37,997 nucleotides of DNA from Minisyncoccota bacterium (GTDB lineage Bacteria > Pseudomonadota > Alphaproteobacteria > Elsterales > Elsteraceae). The position numbers were made by a program, and so were the translations under genes. Of the stretch, positions 4,261 to 11,499 are shown one piece after another (position 1 is the stretch's first letter; every line of letters begins with the position of its first letter). A model generated the notes under the pieces. The model saw only the letters and a list, made by a program, of their open reading frames with translations. It was not told the DNA's origin and ran no database searches. Location: positions 1-37,997 of the forward strand of contig JASGCE010000005.1 of NCBI GenBank assembly GCA_030054295.1. Direction: 5' to 3'.

Positions 4261-5219
4261 TGGAGATCAACGGCGTAAAGATCGCGGCGGAATTTGCCGA
4301 GGCCTTCGACATGACGGCAACGCGAATCATCGTCACCGCCGACAGTGCTCAATGGGTCAAGATTGCCGCCACCACCATGACTGGCTTTGCCACCTCGGTC
4401 ATTGCCTGTGGAGTGGAGGCCGGGATCGAGCGATATTTTTTGCCAACCGAAACCCCGGATGGGCGGCATGGCGCAGCGATTCTGCTCTTTGGCTTTAGCC
4501 GCGATTCGCTGGTTGAGCCAGTGCGCAACCGCGTCAGCCAATGTGTCCTGACCTGCCCTGGAACCGCCTGTTTTGCCGGAGTCACGGCCGATGGAATCAA
4601 GGGCTCGGCCATTCCGCTCGGGCGGAGTCTGAGGTATTTTGGCGATGGTTTCCAGACTGCAAAAAGATTGCTAATGTCTCCCCCTGAAAGACAGTCTGGC
4701 GCGGCAATCGAACGGCGATTCTGGCGCATACCGGTGATGGATGGCGAATTCCTCTGCGAAGATATGCTCGGCCATGTGTCAGCCATTGGCGGGGGTAATT
4801 TTTTAATCCTTGGCCAGTCGCGGCGGCAGGCCCTGCTGGCGGCGGAGGCGGCCATAGTCGCCATGCGTAAAATCCCCGAGGTCATTATGCCCTTCCCGGG
4901 CGGGGTGGTTCGTTCTGGCTCTAAGGTCGGTTCGCGCTATCCGGCCCTGATGGCCTCGACCAACCAGGCCTATTGCCCGACATTGGTTGGGATTGCCGAA
5001 ACATCCTTGGTCGAAGGCACAGCAGCGGTTTACGAAATCGTCATCGATGGTTTAAACTTTGCCGCTATTGCCGAGGCGACGCGGGTTGGAATAATTGCCG
5101 CCTGTCATGCGCCTGAGGGGGGAATCTTGGCCATCTCGGCGGGTAATTACGGCGGCAATCTTGGTCGGCATCATTTTAAGCTGCACGAGATTCTGGCCGA
5201 TGCCGGGGGTGTAAAATGA
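4260..5219 (+). CDS. fhcD: Formylmethanofuran:tetrahydromethanopterin formyltransferase subunit
   Basis: FhcD is the Ftr-type subunit that moves the formyl group between H4MPT and the methanofuran-like carrier of the Fhc complex. The 319-residue protein begins MEINGVKIAAEFAEAFDMTA, a typical Ftr start, and retains family segments such as ATTMTGFATSVIACGVEAG (about residues 37-55) and FPGGVVRSGSKVGSRYPAL (about 211-229). Length and order (B-A-D-C) match known bacterial fhc operons. The stop TGA at 5217-5219 overlaps the fhcC ATG at 5216. Confidence 0.94.
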   Translation: MEINGVKIAAEFAEAFDMTATRIIVTADSAQWVKIAATTMTGFATSVIACGVEAGIERYFLPTETPDGRHGAAILLFGFSRDSLVEPVRNRVSQCVLTCPGTACFAGVTADGIKGSAIPLGRSLRYFGDGFQTAKRLLMSPPERQSGAAIERRFWRIPVMDGEFLCEDMLGHVSAIGGGNFLILGQSRRQALLAAEAAIVAMRKIPEVIMPFPGGVVRSGSKVGSRYPALMASTNQAYCPTLVGIAETSLVEGTAAVYEIVIDGLNFAAIAEATRVGIIAACHAPEGGILAISAGNYGGNLGRHHFKLHEILADAGGVK

Positions 5220-6028
5220 CGAGATTGGTGCTTAAAAACCCGCTGCAATTTCGCCTCTCGATGGCCGGGATTCTGCCGCAAAATCTGGGGAGCCAGACCC
5301 TTAGCGAAATCGAAAAGATACCGCTGCTCTATGGCAATCGTCGATCTCCTTTGGGCGAATTCTTTACCGTCAGCAAAACCAGCGGCAGCGAAGATGGTTT
5401 GGAAATCATCGGCGATGGCAGCCGAATGGATGAGGTGGCGGCGGGAATGATCGGCGGCACCGTGACCATCGAGGGCAATCTCGGGCACTCGGTCGCCGCC
5501 GCTATGACCGGCGGAGTGGTTACCGTCATGGGTTCGGTTGGTCATGGTGCCGGCCATGGCATGAAGGGCGGAGGCCTGATCATCAGCGGCGATGCTGGGG
5601 ATGGACTTGGCAGCGACCTTAACGAGGGCCATGGCCCCATGACGGGCGGGGTGATTAGGGTGGCGGGGAAAGTTGGCGACCAGGCAGCCCATCGCCTTAA
5701 TCGCGGAGTCATATTGGTGGGTGGCTCGCTCGGCAAGGGGGCGGCGACGCGGATGAATGGCGGCACGGTGGTGGCTCTGGGCAAGATCGATTCGGGTCTC
5801 GGGGTCATGAGTCAACGCGGAACCATTCTCGCCCTCGGTGGGGTGCAATCTCTATTACCGAGCTTCGCCGACTGCGGTAACCACGATCTGGTGATTCATC
5901 GCCTGCTGGGGCAGGGTTTGCGGCAGATTGGCGCGGAGGATTTTGCCGCGCGATTGGCATCAAGCGAGTCGCTCCATCGCTATTTGGGGGATTGCGCGGT
6001 GGCGGGTATGTCAGAGATATGGCTTTAG
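5216..6028 (+). CDS. fhcC: Formyltransferase/hydrolase complex subunit C
   Basis: FhcC is the FwdC/GltB-C-terminal-like beta-helix subunit that scaffolds the FhcA-FhcD complex. The sequence is a run of Gly-rich turns (for example GGTVTIEGNLGHSVAAAMTG and GVVTVMGSVGHGAGHGMKGG, about residues 80-125), the repeat pattern of the right-handed beta-helix. Its 270 residues match bacterial homologues. It is coupled to fhcD by an ATGA overlap and is followed after 17 bases by the ThiF/MoeB-like gene on the same strand. Confidence 0.93.
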   Translation: MTRLVLKNPLQFRLSMAGILPQNLGSQTLSEIEKIPLLYGNRRSPLGEFFTVSKTSGSEDGLEIIGDGSRMDEVAAGMIGGTVTIEGNLGHSVAAAMTGGVVTVMGSVGHGAGHGMKGGGLIISGDAGDGLGSDLNEGHGPMTGGVIRVAGKVGDQAAHRLNRGVILVGGSLGKGAATRMNGGTVVALGKIDSGLGVMSQRGTILALGGVQSLLPSFADCGNHDLVIHRLLGQGLRQIGAEDFAARLASSESLHRYLGDCAVAGMSEIWL

Positions 6029-6045
6029 CTTCAATGGGATAGAAC

Positions 6046-6822
6046 ATGGCTTCGACATTGGCTGCGGAAGATATGGCTCGCTATGCAAGGCATGTTTCTC
6101 TCCCCGAGATTGGGGCCGAGGGGGTCGCCATGCTTCGCGCCAGTAAGATTCTGGTGGTGGGGGCGGGGGGCTTGGGGGCCCCGGTTCTGCTCTATCTGGC
6201 AGCAGCGGGAATTGGGTCAATTACGGTCATCGATGATGATCGGATTGCGGTGAGCAATCTGCAAAGGCAGATTATTTTTGACCATGACACGATTGGCCAG
6301 CCGAAGGTGGAGGCGGCGCGGCAAAGACTGGTGGCCTTGAATCCAACGGTGGAGATTAATTCCATTGCCTCGGTTCTCAGGCAAGACAATGCCGCTGAAT
6401 TGATAAGGGCGGCCGATCTGGTCGTCGATGGCAGTGATAATTTTGCCTGTCGTTATCTGGTCAACCGAGTTTGTTTCGAACTGGGTAAGGTACTGGTCTC
6501 GGCAGCGGTGACTGGATTTGCCGGACAGCTGACGGTCATTGCTGCGGATGGAGATAATCGCCCCTGCTACAATTGCCTCTTCCCCGAATCCGATTCCACC
6601 ACCGACCCCTTTGCCAATTGCGAAGGCCTGGGCGTCTTGGGCCCGGCCGCCGGAGTCATGGGCAGCCTGCAGGCGGTGGAGGTGATTAAATCAATAGTTG
6701 GCATTGGTGATTCCATGGTCGGGCGGCTCTTGGTCTATGAATCCCTGTCGGCCAGCCTGCAAGAATTTGCCTATGACCGCGACCCCCATTGTACCGTCTG
6801 TGGCGGTCGCCATGGTTCCTGA
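6046..6822 (+). CDS. ThiF/MoeB/HesA-family adenylyltransferase (E1-like)
   Basis: Members of this family adenylate the C-terminal Gly-Gly of a ubiquitin-like sulfur carrier such as MoaD or ThiS. The 258-residue protein has the nucleotide loop GAGGLGAP (39-46), DDDRIAVSNLQRQ (63-75), a CxxC zinc pair at C174/C177 with its partner at C249/C252, and C192 in NCEGLGVLGPAAGVMGS, the usual thioester cysteine region. It could serve molybdopterin, thiamine or another sulfur-relay pathway. The motifs do not settle which, and no MoaD or ThiS partner is visible. Its end overlaps the TSUP gene start by 11 bases, so it appears to belong to the fhc transcription unit. Confidence 0.88.
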   Translation: MASTLAAEDMARYARHVSLPEIGAEGVAMLRASKILVVGAGGLGAPVLLYLAAAGIGSITVIDDDRIAVSNLQRQIIFDHDTIGQPKVEAARQRLVALNPTVEINSIASVLRQDNAAELIRAADLVVDGSDNFACRYLVNRVCFELGKVLVSAAVTGFAGQLTVIAADGDNRPCYNCLFPESDSTTDPFANCEGLGVLGPAAGVMGSLQAVEVIKSIVGIGDSMVGRLLVYESLSASLQEFAYDRDPHCTVCGGRHGS

Positions 6823-7645: not shown

Positions 7646-8421
7646 CCCGCCCGTTCGACGATCATCTCCTTGATCTTGCTGATGGCCTTGGCGGGGTTCA
7701 GTCCCTTGGGGCAGGTGTTGGTGCAGTTCATAATTGTATGGCAGCGGTACAGCCTGAACGGGTCTTCAAGGGCATCGAGTCGCTCGCCGGTATGATCGTC
7801 GCGGCTATCGGCCAACCAACGGTAAGCCTGGAGCAGCACCGCCGGCCCCAGATAACGGTCGCCATTCCACCAATAGCTTGGACAAGAAGTCGTGCAACAG
7901 AAACAAAGAATACATTCCCACAACCCATCGAGCTTGGCGCGGTCTTCGGGCGACTGGAGTCGCTCCTTCGGCGGTTCGGTCACAGTGGATTTTAACCAGG
8001 GCTCGATCTGCTGATATTGGGCGTAAGGCACCGACAGGTCTGGCACCAGGTCCTTGATCACTGGCATGTGCGGCAGGGGGGTGATGGTGACGGTGTTCTT
8101 ACATTCCTCAATCGGATGGAGACAGGCGAGGGTATTCTTGCCGTCGATATTCATCGAACAGGAACCGCAGATCCCCTCGCGGCAGGAACGGCGAAAGGTC
8201 AGGGTCGAATCCATCTCAGACTTGATCTTGATCAAGGCATCCAAGACCATCGGGCCGCAATTACCGACATCGACCTCGAACTCATCCATCCGCGGATTCT
8301 CTCCGGTGTCGGGATTCCAGCGGTAGACGCTAAATTGCCGCGTCCGCTTCGCCGATTGCGGCGCGGGGAAAGACTGACCCTTCTTGACCCGCGAATTTTT
8401 TGGCAGCCGTAATTCAACCAT
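7642..8421 (-). CDS. sdhB: Succinate dehydrogenase iron-sulfur subunit
   Basis: SdhB carries electrons from the SdhA flavin to ubiquinone in complex II. The 259-residue protein has the [2Fe-2S] ligands C80, C85, C88 and C100 ([12 protein letters not shown]), then the ferredoxin-like clusters [11 protein letters not shown] (170-180) and [11 protein letters not shown] (227-237), which supply the [4Fe-4S] and [3Fe-4S] centres. The length is usual for alphaproteobacteria. AGGGAT precedes the ATG. Unusually, it is separated from sdhA by a two-gene A+T-rich cassette and lies only 37 bases after the proteasome-like gene, so its expression must pass through the cassette or start from the cassette promoter. 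Confidence 0.97.
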
Positions 8422-8458
8422 TTTTTTGATCCCTATGATTCATCATTCTTGGACTATG

Positions 8459-9217
8459 TTATTTATCACTCTTCTTGACGATTGATTCTAATGAATTTCC
8501 TGTATCTTCACTGGTTTTAGAAAAAAATGTTTTATCACGCCATTTTTGCAGATCGAATTTAATTTTGGTAACCCAGTCTCTTGATTCGTCTATCTGCCCC
8601 TCTTTAAGTTCATTAATGTTTATTTTATCTGACTCGTTATAATTAATAGTAGCAATTCTAATGGGTCCAGCAACGCCCCCAGCATTTGTGGCAATAACAT
8701 GCTCAATAACCCATGTGGTAATAAATCGCGCGATGTTTACATTAGGTTGCTTACCGTCACAAAAAATATCAAGAAGATGAATAAGAAATGGTTCCGCGCC
8801 AAGCTGACCTGAACCCATTGCCTGATAAAAATGATCCTTGTCGAGAATAAAGGGACGGTTAATTGTATTAAGAATCGTGCAGAAGAAAGAATTATCACGA
8901 TGATAGGCGAGCAGACCCGCTGTAACCCCTTGATCAATTTGTAATAGGTTAACAGATAAGGAATTGGCCAATCGCTTTACAAACTGAAAATTATCATTTT
9001 GCGGTTGAATTGGCTGCTTGAAATGGGATTCGACAAAATATTTTATCGAATGACCAATATCTGTATTTCCGGCATAAGCAAAAATCCACTCCTCATCCGT
9101 CCAGATTTTTTTACCACTATGATGGGCGAGCGGCTGATTGCCCCAGCTCGAGGTCAACATACTATCGGCACCAATCACCACGCCATCGGTGCATAGAATT
9201 CCAACCAATAGGGTCAT
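8459..9217 (-). CDS. Proteasome/HslV-like N-terminal-threonine (Ntn) hydrolase
   Basis: The 252-residue protein begins MTLLVGILCTDGVVIGADSM. Thr2 follows the initiator Met directly, as in mature HslV and proteasome beta subunits where Thr1 is the nucleophile. The Asp17 equivalent (D18) fits without gaps, Lys33 is probably K36 or K37 (GKKIW), AYAG (47-50) matches the Gly47 region, and GSG (135-137) matches the Ser129 region. The distal Asp166/Ser169 pair is not evident (NAGG at 178-181). The last 50 residues are polar and lysine-rich. I infer an active self-compartmentalising or dimeric peptidase-like enzyme. It is not HslV, Anbu or the 20S beta subunit by length and context. It overlaps the upstream SocA/YwgA-like gene by ATGA (start 9217). 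Base composition is low in G+C (19 of 60 at 8521-8580). It has no ATPase partner nearby. Confidence 0.72.
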   Translation of the reverse strand: MTLLVGILCTDGVVIGADSMLTSSWGNQPLAHHSGKKIWTDEEWIFAYAGNTDIGHSIKYFVESHFKQPIQPQNDNFQFVKRLANSLSVNLLQIDQGVTAGLLAYHRDNSFFCTILNTINRPFILDKDHFYQAMGSGQLGAEPFLIHLLDIFCDGKQPNVNIARFITTWVIEHVIATNAGGVAGPIRIATINYNESDKININELKEGQIDESRDWVTKIKFDLQKWRDKTFFSKTSEDTGNSLESIVKKSDK

Positions 9218-9639
9218 TTGTTAAACACCCAATTAACCGCCATCTCGGGATAGAGATTAAAGACTGAGCGAGTCAAATTACTAATATCGGCCGCAGCAAC
9301 CCAGTCGCAAATATCGTGCAGATATTTTTTCTTTTCCTCGGTTAAGGTCTTTGCGATTTCGACTCCGCGTTCCATCCCCTTTTCGGTCAAGGAATATGTC
9401 CGAAAGGTTTTAAAAGGTTTGATTCTCAACAAACCCTGAGCTTGCAAAGCCTTTAACTCGTCATGTAACTCCATGTCGAAGGGGCCATAACTATCGGCAA
9501 TAAAATTAAATTTGTTTTGCTCATTTAACTTTGCTTCGCGGTCAATGATGAAGATCAGCTTTTGAATTTTTGTCGGGGTAAATTCATGGATTTCACCCAA
9601 TGCTGCCATTGTTACCAGAATCACTTCAGACTTTTCCAT
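9214..9639 (-). CDS. SocA/YwgA/DUF4065 (Panacea)-like small protein
   Basis: The 141-residue protein shows TPTKIQKLIFIIDRE (about residues 21-35), SYGPFDMELHDELKALQAQG (50-69), TYSLTEKG and a C-terminal YPEMAVNWVF. This pattern fits the winged-helix YwgA/SocA/DUF4065 group, which includes antitoxin-like and adaptor proteins such as the SocA proteolytic adaptor. The match is from memory of family motifs, so the exact subfamily is uncertain. A strong GGGAGG lies 5 bases before the ATG. The gene has its own promoter and overlaps the proteasome-like gene, implying coupled production of a regulator or adaptor and a hydrolase. Confidence 0.65.
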   Translation of the reverse strand: MEKSEVILVTMAALGEIHEFTPTKIQKLIFIIDREAKLNEQNKFNFIADSYGPFDMELHDELKALQAQGLLRIKPFKTFRTYSLTEKGMERGVEIAKTLTEEKKKYLHDICDWVAAADISNLTRSVFNLYPEMAVNWVFNK

Positions 9640-9675
9640 GGCTACCTCCCTTCATAAAACTAAACAAGATTCAAA

Positions 9676-9704
9676 ATTATCATGCAATTGAGAAATTATG
9701 TCAA
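9676..9704 (-). promoter_or_regulatory. Sigma-70-type promoter of the two-gene cassette
   Basis: Read on the minus strand, TTGACA (9704-9699), a 17-base spacer and GATAAT (9681-9676) form a near-consensus promoter in the 72-base gap after sdhA. It would start transcription about 30 bases before the SocA-like gene, so the cassette, and probably sdhB, can be transcribed independently of sdhCDA. Confidence 0.6.
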
Positions 9705-9711
9705 TTTCACC

Positions 9712-11499
9712 CTAATAGACCCGTGGCTTGGGCGGAAATGACTGTACCTCGTCGGTCATGGGCTGGAGGTGAACCGGCCGGTCGCCGAGCTTGACCTTAC
9801 CTTTGCTATCCACCCAGGCGAGGCTGTGCTTAAGCCATTTTATATCGTCACGGTTGGGGTAGTCGTCGCGGGCATGGGCTCCGCGGCTTTCGGTGCGGTT
9901 GTGCGCCGAATAGACGGTAGCCTGGGCCTGCACCACCAGATTATCGAGTTCCAAAGCCTCGACCAGATCAGAGTTCCAAATCAAGGAGCGGTCGCTGATG
10001 CCCAGATCATTCATGCCCTTGGCAATCCTGTCGATCTCGGTCACGCCCTGTGACAGAAGTTTGTCCTCGCGGAAAACCGCGCAGCTCTGTTGCATTTGTT
10101 TTTGCAGCTTCAGGCGATGGGCACCAACCGCCCGCTCGCCCTTGGCCTGGCGCATTCTGTCGAACCGCGCCAGAGCTGCCTCCTCGCTCCCTCCCGTAAC
10201 TGGCGCATGTTTTGCCCCGGGTTTGATAAGCTCGGCGGCGCGAATGGCGGCGGCGCGACCAAAGACCACCAGATCGACCAGCGAATTACAGCCGAGTCGA
10301 TTGGCACCATGAACCGAGACACAGGCAGCCTCCCCAATCGCCATCAGACCCGGCACAACCGCGTCGGGGTTCTTGGCCGTGGGTCGCAGCACCTCGGCGT
10401 GGTAATTTGTCGGAATCCCACCCATATTGTAATGGACGGTGGGTAAGACGGGAATCGGCTGGCGAGTGACATCGACCCCGGCAAAAATCTTGGCGGTCTC
10501 GGAAATGCCCGGCAGTTTTTCGTGGATGGTCTCGGCGGGCAAATGTTCGATATGGAGCAATATGTGATCCTGATGCTCGCCCACGCCGCGACCCTCCAGA
10601 ATCTCCATGGTCATGGCGCGGCTGACGACATCGCGCGAGGCCAGGTCTTTTGCCGATGGAGCATAGCGTTCCATGAATCGCTCCCCGGCGGAATTGGTCA
10701 GGTAACCGCCCTCGCCGCGCACACCCTCGCTGATCAAACAGCCCGCGCCATAGATTCCGGTCGGATGGAACTGAATAAACTCCATATCCTGAAGCGGTAA
10801 TCCCGCCCTGAGGGCCATAGCATTGCCATCACCCGTGCAGGTATGGGCCGAGGTGCAAGAAAAATAAACCCGCCCATAGCCGCCGGTCGCCAACACCGTT
10901 TGATGGGCGCGAAAGCGATGGAGCGAACCATCATCCAGACACCAGGCCAGCACCCCTTGGCAGGCACCAGACTCATCCATCAACAGATCAAGCACTATAT
11001 ATTCGACATAGAATTCCGACCGGTGTTTTAGACACTGCTGGTAAAGACTGTGGAGAATCGCATGGCCAGTGCGATCTGCCGCGGCATTGGCACGACGCAC
11101 CGGAGCCTCGCCATAGTTGGCCGTATGACCGCCAAAGGGCCGCTGATAGATTTTGCCATCTTCGGTGCGGCTGAAGGGAACTCCGTAATGTTCCAGTTCA
11201 ATCACCGCCGGAATCGCATTGCGGCAGAGATATTCAATCGCATCCTGATCCCCCAGCCAATCCGACCCCTTGACCGTATCATACATGTGGAAACGCCAGT
11301 CATCCGCCCCTAAATTACCGAGAGCAGCGGCGATACCCCCCTGGGCCGCGACCGTATGGCTGCGGGTCGGAAAGACCTTGGTCAGACAGGCGGTTCGGAG
11401 GCCGACGGCACTCATCCCGAGGGTCGCGCGGAGTCCCGCTCCGCCCGCGCCAACGACAATGACATCATATTCATGTTCGGTAATCGGATAGGCCGTCAT
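9712..11499 (-). CDS. sdhA: Succinate dehydrogenase flavoprotein subunit
   Basis: SdhA oxidises succinate to fumarate with covalently bound FAD at the inner face of the cytoplasmic membrane. The 595-residue protein has the dinucleotide loop [11 protein letters not shown] (15-25), the FAD-linking histidine H48 in [11 protein letters not shown], the substrate-site motif [16 protein letters not shown] and the C-terminal DDYPNRDD with HSLAW. The length is standard. It follows sdhD after 48 bases. The usual next gene, sdhB, is displaced by about 1.3 kb. Confidence 0.98.

Follow-up and report, generated by a model that had tools for sequence, protein, structure and literature searches.

A predicted proteasome-family hydrolase and its Panacea-like partner: a candidate two-gene conflict module

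The gene pair and its place in the sdh operon

The DNA analysed here, termed the window, is a stretch of 37,997 nucleotides from a Minisyncoccota bacterium (assembly GCA_030054295.1, contig JASGCE010000005.1, positions 1 to 37,997 of the forward strand). On its reverse strand, two overlapping genes lie between sdhA, whose stop is at 9712, and sdhB, which starts at 8421. The first encodes a SocA/Panacea-like winged-helix protein, termed the partner below, and the second a predicted hydrolase of the proteasome family. The features of the locus, with the conservation of the predicted active site in the hydrolase family, are as follows.

8422 to 9711, no strand: stretch inserted between sdhA and sdhB compared with seven relatives, whose gaps are 5–288 bp
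9676 to 9704, reverse strand: the pair's own promoter, TTGACA-N17-GATAAT, 11 of 12 matches, spacer 17
9644 to 9650, reverse strand: ribosome-binding site GGGAGGT, ahead of the ATG of the partner gene, from sequence
9214 to 9639, reverse strand: partner gene, SocA/Panacea-like winged-helix protein, 141 aa, from sequence, Pfam and predicted fold
9214 to 9217, reverse strand: ATGA, stop of the partner gene over the start of the hydrolase gene, a 4-base overlap (translational coupling)
8459 to 9217, reverse strand: gene for a proteasome-like N-terminal threonine hydrolase, 252 aa, from predicted fold and alignment
9212 to 9214, reverse strand: Thr2 codon (Thr1 after Met removal), predicted nucleophile, 75 of 75, aligned with the first residue of mature beta subunits
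9164 to 9166, reverse strand: Asp18 codon (Asp17 equivalent), 75 of 75
9107 to 9109, reverse strand: Lys37 codon (Lys33 equivalent), 75 of 75
8810 to 8812, reverse strand: Ser136 codon, in GSG (Ser129 equivalent), Ser in 68 of 75

The initial annotation of this DNA had described two genes overlapping by ATGA, with a near-consensus promoter of their own, richer in A+T than their surroundings and situated inside the sdh operon, and each of these points holds. The promoter is only supportive, since about four sites with at least 9 of 12 matches are expected by chance in the window. The GC content of the pair is 39.8% compared to 53.7% for the window, and an equally low value occurs in only 9 of 737 segments of the same size. 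In the seven relatives of the same family in which both sdhA and sdhB could be read, the two genes are separated by 5–288 bp without the pair, and the hydrolase was found nowhere in the genomes of eight relatives of the same order. In view of these absences, the pair is most simply regarded as a lineage-specific insertion of a compact cassette.

Predicted fold and affiliation of the two proteins

Single-sequence searches of plasmids, phages, viral contigs and GTDB genomes returned no relatives of the pair, and profiles were needed; the hydrolase alignment comprises 75 homologues gathered by profile searches. Met1, Thr2, Asp18, Lys37, Gly50 and Gly135 are invariant in this alignment. Thr2, Asp18, Lys37 and Gly50 correspond to the Thr1/Asp17/Lys33/Gly47 core of proteasome-like Ntn hydrolases, and the catalytic triad is complete in all 75 sequences. 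The threonine after Met, the Asp17 and Lys33 equivalents and the GSG motif, all noted earlier in the single sequence, are therefore invariant or nearly so across the family. The suspected absence of the distal Asp/Ser pair is also borne out: the equivalents of Asp166 and Ser169 are Ala176 and Ala179 in the window hydrolase, while the family has Asp in 19 and Ser in 7 of 75 sequences, and most relatives carry the Pro of an NPGG motif at the Ser169-equivalent position. Asp166 and Ser169 are accessory residues outside the Thr/Asp/Lys triad and are not defining on their own.

The window hydrolase itself matches the proteasome family PF00227 at E 0.1, with 12.7 bits against a gathering score of 22.4; across the family, 74 of 75 sequences reach PF00227 with E values no higher than 1, the lowest being 2.5e-14. 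A profile search of the PDB with the hydrolase retrieved proteasome beta subunits at 2.7e-12, with Thr2 falling on mature residue 1. The AlphaFold model (pLDDT 91, pTM 0.87) contains two sheets, helices H1–H4 and a 31-residue C-terminal helix, H5 (residues 206–236). Structure prediction had been named at the outset as a check on the proteasome fold, and Foldseek matched the model to proteasome and Anbu chains (E 4.5e-11, TM up to 0.67, probability 1.00), with 1045 matches below E 0.001. Model and alignment together show a predicted hydrolase of the proteasome family in which Thr immediately follows Met and the Thr-Asp-Lys core is intact.

Among the families compared, the closest relatives of the hydrolase, as judged by profiles, are proteasome beta subunits and Anbu, not HslV. 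HslV (ClpQ) shares the threonine after the initiator Met, the D17/K33 equivalents and GSG, and the PHROG “peptidase HslV family” is matched at E 6.6e-6; however, HslV aligns with the hydrolase profile over the N-terminal part only, and the hydrolase has an extra C-terminal helix and no hslU neighbor. In a one-to-one comparison of profiles Anbu aligns along most of the length, but only as a distant match (E 7.7e-9), and the Anbu loci found adjoin, by inspection, alpha-E-like and transglutaminase-like genes. Two groups of collected loci were placed outside the hydrolase family, namely the weak matches L006–L008, which are Anbu, and L105–L109, which are HslV-like.

A 2021 survey by Fuchs, Alva and Lupas listed proteasome homologues and described 22 new clusters; Anbu, WPH, PHI, PMI and others are among the homologues (PMC8665760). 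The hydrolase shares with them the proteasome fold, the Thr1/Asp17/Lys33/Gly47 core and a spread over bacteria, archaea and phages (PMC8665760), and it has the long C-terminal helix described for Anbu and WPH (PMC8665760). The modelled H5, without large insertions, favors a WPH-like protein over PMI. Distribution alone would fit PMI-4, but this assignment was not made; the model shows none of the large insertions that PMI proteins have.

The partner is less readily assigned by sequence. It matches SocA_Panacea (PF13274) at E 0.026, with 15.9 bits, under the cut-off of 25.7, and it also matches the NCBIfam DarG model (2.1e-4). Weak SocA_Panacea matches occur in 47 of 84 partner relatives (best 2.5e-5), and PadR matches in 36 of 84. 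Its AlphaFold model has a pLDDT of 92.7, and among solved structures its fold is matched best by the DarG antitoxin in the DarTG complex (TM 0.59, probability 1.00). Residues 52–54 form a GPF motif that is invariant or near-invariant, with Gly52 invariant, where the Panacea motif is GPV (PMC8832971). The predicted fold shows a winged-helix SocA/Panacea-like protein, so that the earlier designation as SocA/YwgA/DUF4065-type stands at the level of fold, while the window protein itself remains under the Pfam cut-off. The PADLOC candidate-defence model PDC-M19A also matches the partner (7.2e-12) and nothing matches the protease; the pair was not taken as a known defence system.

Recurrent pairing, spread and mate exchange

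Searches with the partner as the only probe supplied 80 genomic loci, and the hydrolase adjoins the partner in 75 of them. The five exceptions are three loci with a DUF2335 membrane protein in its place (L039, L091, L095), L046, which has neither of these mates, and L082, which lies at a contig end. When the hydrolase served as probe, the partner was present at all nine further strong matches and absent at a distant phage homologue (L115). The recurrent pairing that the initial annotation had asked to be looked for in other genomes was thus found. Eighty-two pairs are co-directional, 34 of them with the 4-base overlap seen in the window, and four are convergent with overlapping stops; a few places enter this count twice, and among the four convergent pairs one locus accounts for two. 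Recurrence in two orientations rules out chance adjacency. In addition, pairwise distances of partners and hydrolases correlate with an r of 0.605, compared to a permuted maximum of 0.169. These comparisons of sequence and gene order show that the two proteins co-diverge and are almost always neighbors, and on the same grounds their pairing is near-obligate.

The pair is spread over at least a dozen phyla, including archaea, and is also found in phages. Record titles name Alpha-, Gamma- and Deltaproteobacteria, Chloroflexi, Acidobacteria, Nitrospirae, Nitrospinae, Planctomycetes, Verrucomicrobia, Kiritimatiellae, Latescibacteria, KSB1, a CPR bacterium and Methanomicrobiales. In the host class the pair is rare, occurring in 3 of 385 genomes, and one MAG carries four copies (L023, L027, L029 and L047). 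In genome contigs the genes directly next to the pair vary; those that recur are restriction-modification subunits, helicases, integrases and transposases. Genome comparison thus shows what appears to be a mobile module.

No AAA+ unfoldase is found among the recurrent neighbor families of the genomic loci, no ATPase is encoded with the pair, and a complete hslVU lies separately in the host genome, with no hslU beside the pair. The proposal that the pair works without an HslU-type ATPase is in line with this gene context. On the host contig that carries the hslVU operon (C285; L145:2745-4149 and 4318-6233), two tandem SocA/Panacea genes, both above the Pfam cut-off, follow directly.

The partner also occurs with other neighbors. 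In the close relatives paired with DUF2335, from Rhodothermales and Longimicrobiales (L039:5998-7143, L091:5995-7122 and L095:6001-7082), a C-terminal extension of about 70 aa replaces the tail common to other members, and these loci represent an apparent partner swap. In haloarchaeal plasmids, Panacea-like genes (L146:1758-2950 and L147:714-1903) come after a gene for a helix-turn-helix protein of about 245 aa, another candidate partner family.

At seven loci (L016 and copies, L027, L056, L074, L075, L096 and L123) the hydrolase is disrupted and the partner intact; in L016 the hydrolase is truncated after about 10 codons. The reverse, a broken partner with an intact hydrolase, was not seen among the loci examined. 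This asymmetry has a chance of about 0.04 if breaks are proportional to gene length, from a small sample that consists partly of MAGs, and it is weakened by MAG sequencing errors and by the collection of most loci with the partner as probe.

In several unrelated phages, the pair or a lone partner adjoins terminase, portal or head-protease genes. Placements at or near terminase or portal genes of the head module are L113:1774-2981, L111:7391-8571, L126:2140-2589, L129:3389-4219 and L121:8001-8429. One phage contig has two tandem Panacea-like genes and no protease (L124:8001-9220), and another has a distant proteasome-like protein without a partner (L115:8001-8852). In Chloroflexota/Anaerolineae copies of the pair (L087, L088, L090, L092, L093, L094 and L101), the neighbors are alike in size and placement, with uvrB in the two that were checked. 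This suggests a conserved place and vertical inheritance in that group.

Proposed function and competing explanations

The reading favored here is that the pair forms a mobile two-gene conflict module of the toxin-antitoxin type, in which the partner would directly bind and control the protease; its probability is put at about one half. An antitoxin-like role is preferred because of the DarG fold match, the Panacea-like swapping of mates, the partner-first gene order, the patchy and mobile spread, and the persistence of intact partners next to broken proteases. Also in its favor are the proteasome fold with its active-site core, the near-obligate pairing and correlated distances, the several copies in one genome, the insertion at sdh in this lineage, and the integrase, transposase, restriction-modification and phage neighbors. 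As is typical of type II toxin-antitoxin systems, the two genes are tightly linked, co-inherited and patchily distributed. By extension from known families, methionine aminopeptidase would expose the threonine of the hydrolase, which would then self-assemble into an oligomer in the manner of HslV and Anbu. The partner would bind the hydrolase directly and either keep it from doing harm or give it direction, in the way that Panacea proteins act on their toxins; once released or redirected, for example through a phage product, the hydrolase would cleave a cellular or phage protein. Counting against a conflict module are the score of the window partner under the Panacea cut-off (15.9 versus 25.7 bits) and the shared place in Chloroflexota, which resembles a housekeeping locus rather than a mobile toxin.

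The main rival, a serious though less probable one, is that the partner is an adaptor or activator, which recruits substrates to a latent proteasome-like oligomer, or opens it, without ATP. Its C-terminal tail, which reads NSVFxx in most members but NWVFNK in the window, would dock as activator tails do on proteasomes or HslV. This explanation is taken seriously because SocA is a known proteolytic adaptor, delivering SocB to ClpXP (PMC8832971), and because the tail is both conserved and flexible: its conservation is 73% compared to 51% for the core, yet it is weakly ordered in the single-chain model (pLDDT 73, then 44). Moreover, most pairs have Phe at position −3, as does the host HslU, which ends in SKFIL, and the tail is lost in the DUF2335-paired relatives. 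However, tails of this kind also occur without the protease, in the haloarchaeal plasmids (NSVLR, NSVW) and in phage L126 (NAVF), so that the idea of a tail exclusive to protease pairs was dropped and the tail is no proof of docking; its distance to the C-terminus also ranges from 1 to 8 residues. The initial annotation had offered both an adaptor with a protease and a regulator with an effector. The regulator with its effector stands at roughly even odds, and the adaptor at a clearly lower likelihood.

It is improbable that the pair is a phage protein-processing cassette, serving head maturation or a late-gene function and picked up by bacteria. Proximity to terminase, portal or head-protease genes, seen at L111, L113, L120, L121, L126 and L129, is what such a cassette would show, but virus-based contig selection favors hallmark neighbors, L120 and L129 also have an ordinary head-protease-like gene, and most loci are bacterial or archaeal genome contigs with varied, unrelated neighbors, as with sdh here. 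A housekeeping pair for quality control or regulation, with the winged-helix protein as transcription factor or chaperone for the hydrolase and no conflict role, would suit the PadR-like similarity of 36 of 84 members and the apparently common chromosomal place in some Chloroflexota, but is very doubtful given the patchiness (3 of 385 class genomes, none of 8 order relatives) and the several copies per genome in places.

The pair stands near several known systems. Like SocA/Panacea (DUF4065) and PanAT pairs (Kurata 2022, PMC8832971), it has a two-gene overlap with the antitoxin-like gene first, a GP-x motif, mate swapping and a predicted antitoxin-type fold; exchange of toxin mates has been described for Panacea (Kurata 2022, PMC8832971). 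It differs in that the window partner is under the Pfam cut-off and that its mate is a protease. Proteases appear in the Panacea paper as rare accessory third genes, or as ClpXP and Lon in tests, and no proteasome is among them (PMC8832971). The C-terminal antitoxin domain of DarG is the best solved match of the partner, but at 14% identity, and the pair has no macrodomain or DarT toxin. Unlike the surveyed proteasome homologues, for which the 2021 survey reported no genomic context or co-occurrence suggestive of function (PMC8665760), the hydrolase almost always adjoins a Panacea-like gene. In the main text of the papers searched, nothing was found that links Panacea or DUF4065 with a proteasome homologue; a listing in a supplementary table is possible. 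The parts are of known kinds, and the module looks like a new combination, so far undescribed.

The near-obligate, antitoxin-like partner provides a functional clue for an orphan proteasome homologue, which can be seen as half of a two-protein system. Should the partner be an activator, the pair would represent a new mode of driving a proteasome-like enzyme independently of ATP. Should the protease be the effector, toxin-antitoxin and phage-defence modules would gain proteasome-type proteolysis as an activity. Somewhat more tentatively, with the balance just short of even, the pair may represent a widespread toxin-antitoxin or anti-phage class, in which a proteasome-family protease self-assembles and serves as the effector, and a Panacea-like partner restrains and triggers it without ATP. 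This would give an orphan proteasome homologue its first genetic context and function, and would be the first proteasome-type effector under a Panacea-type antitoxin.
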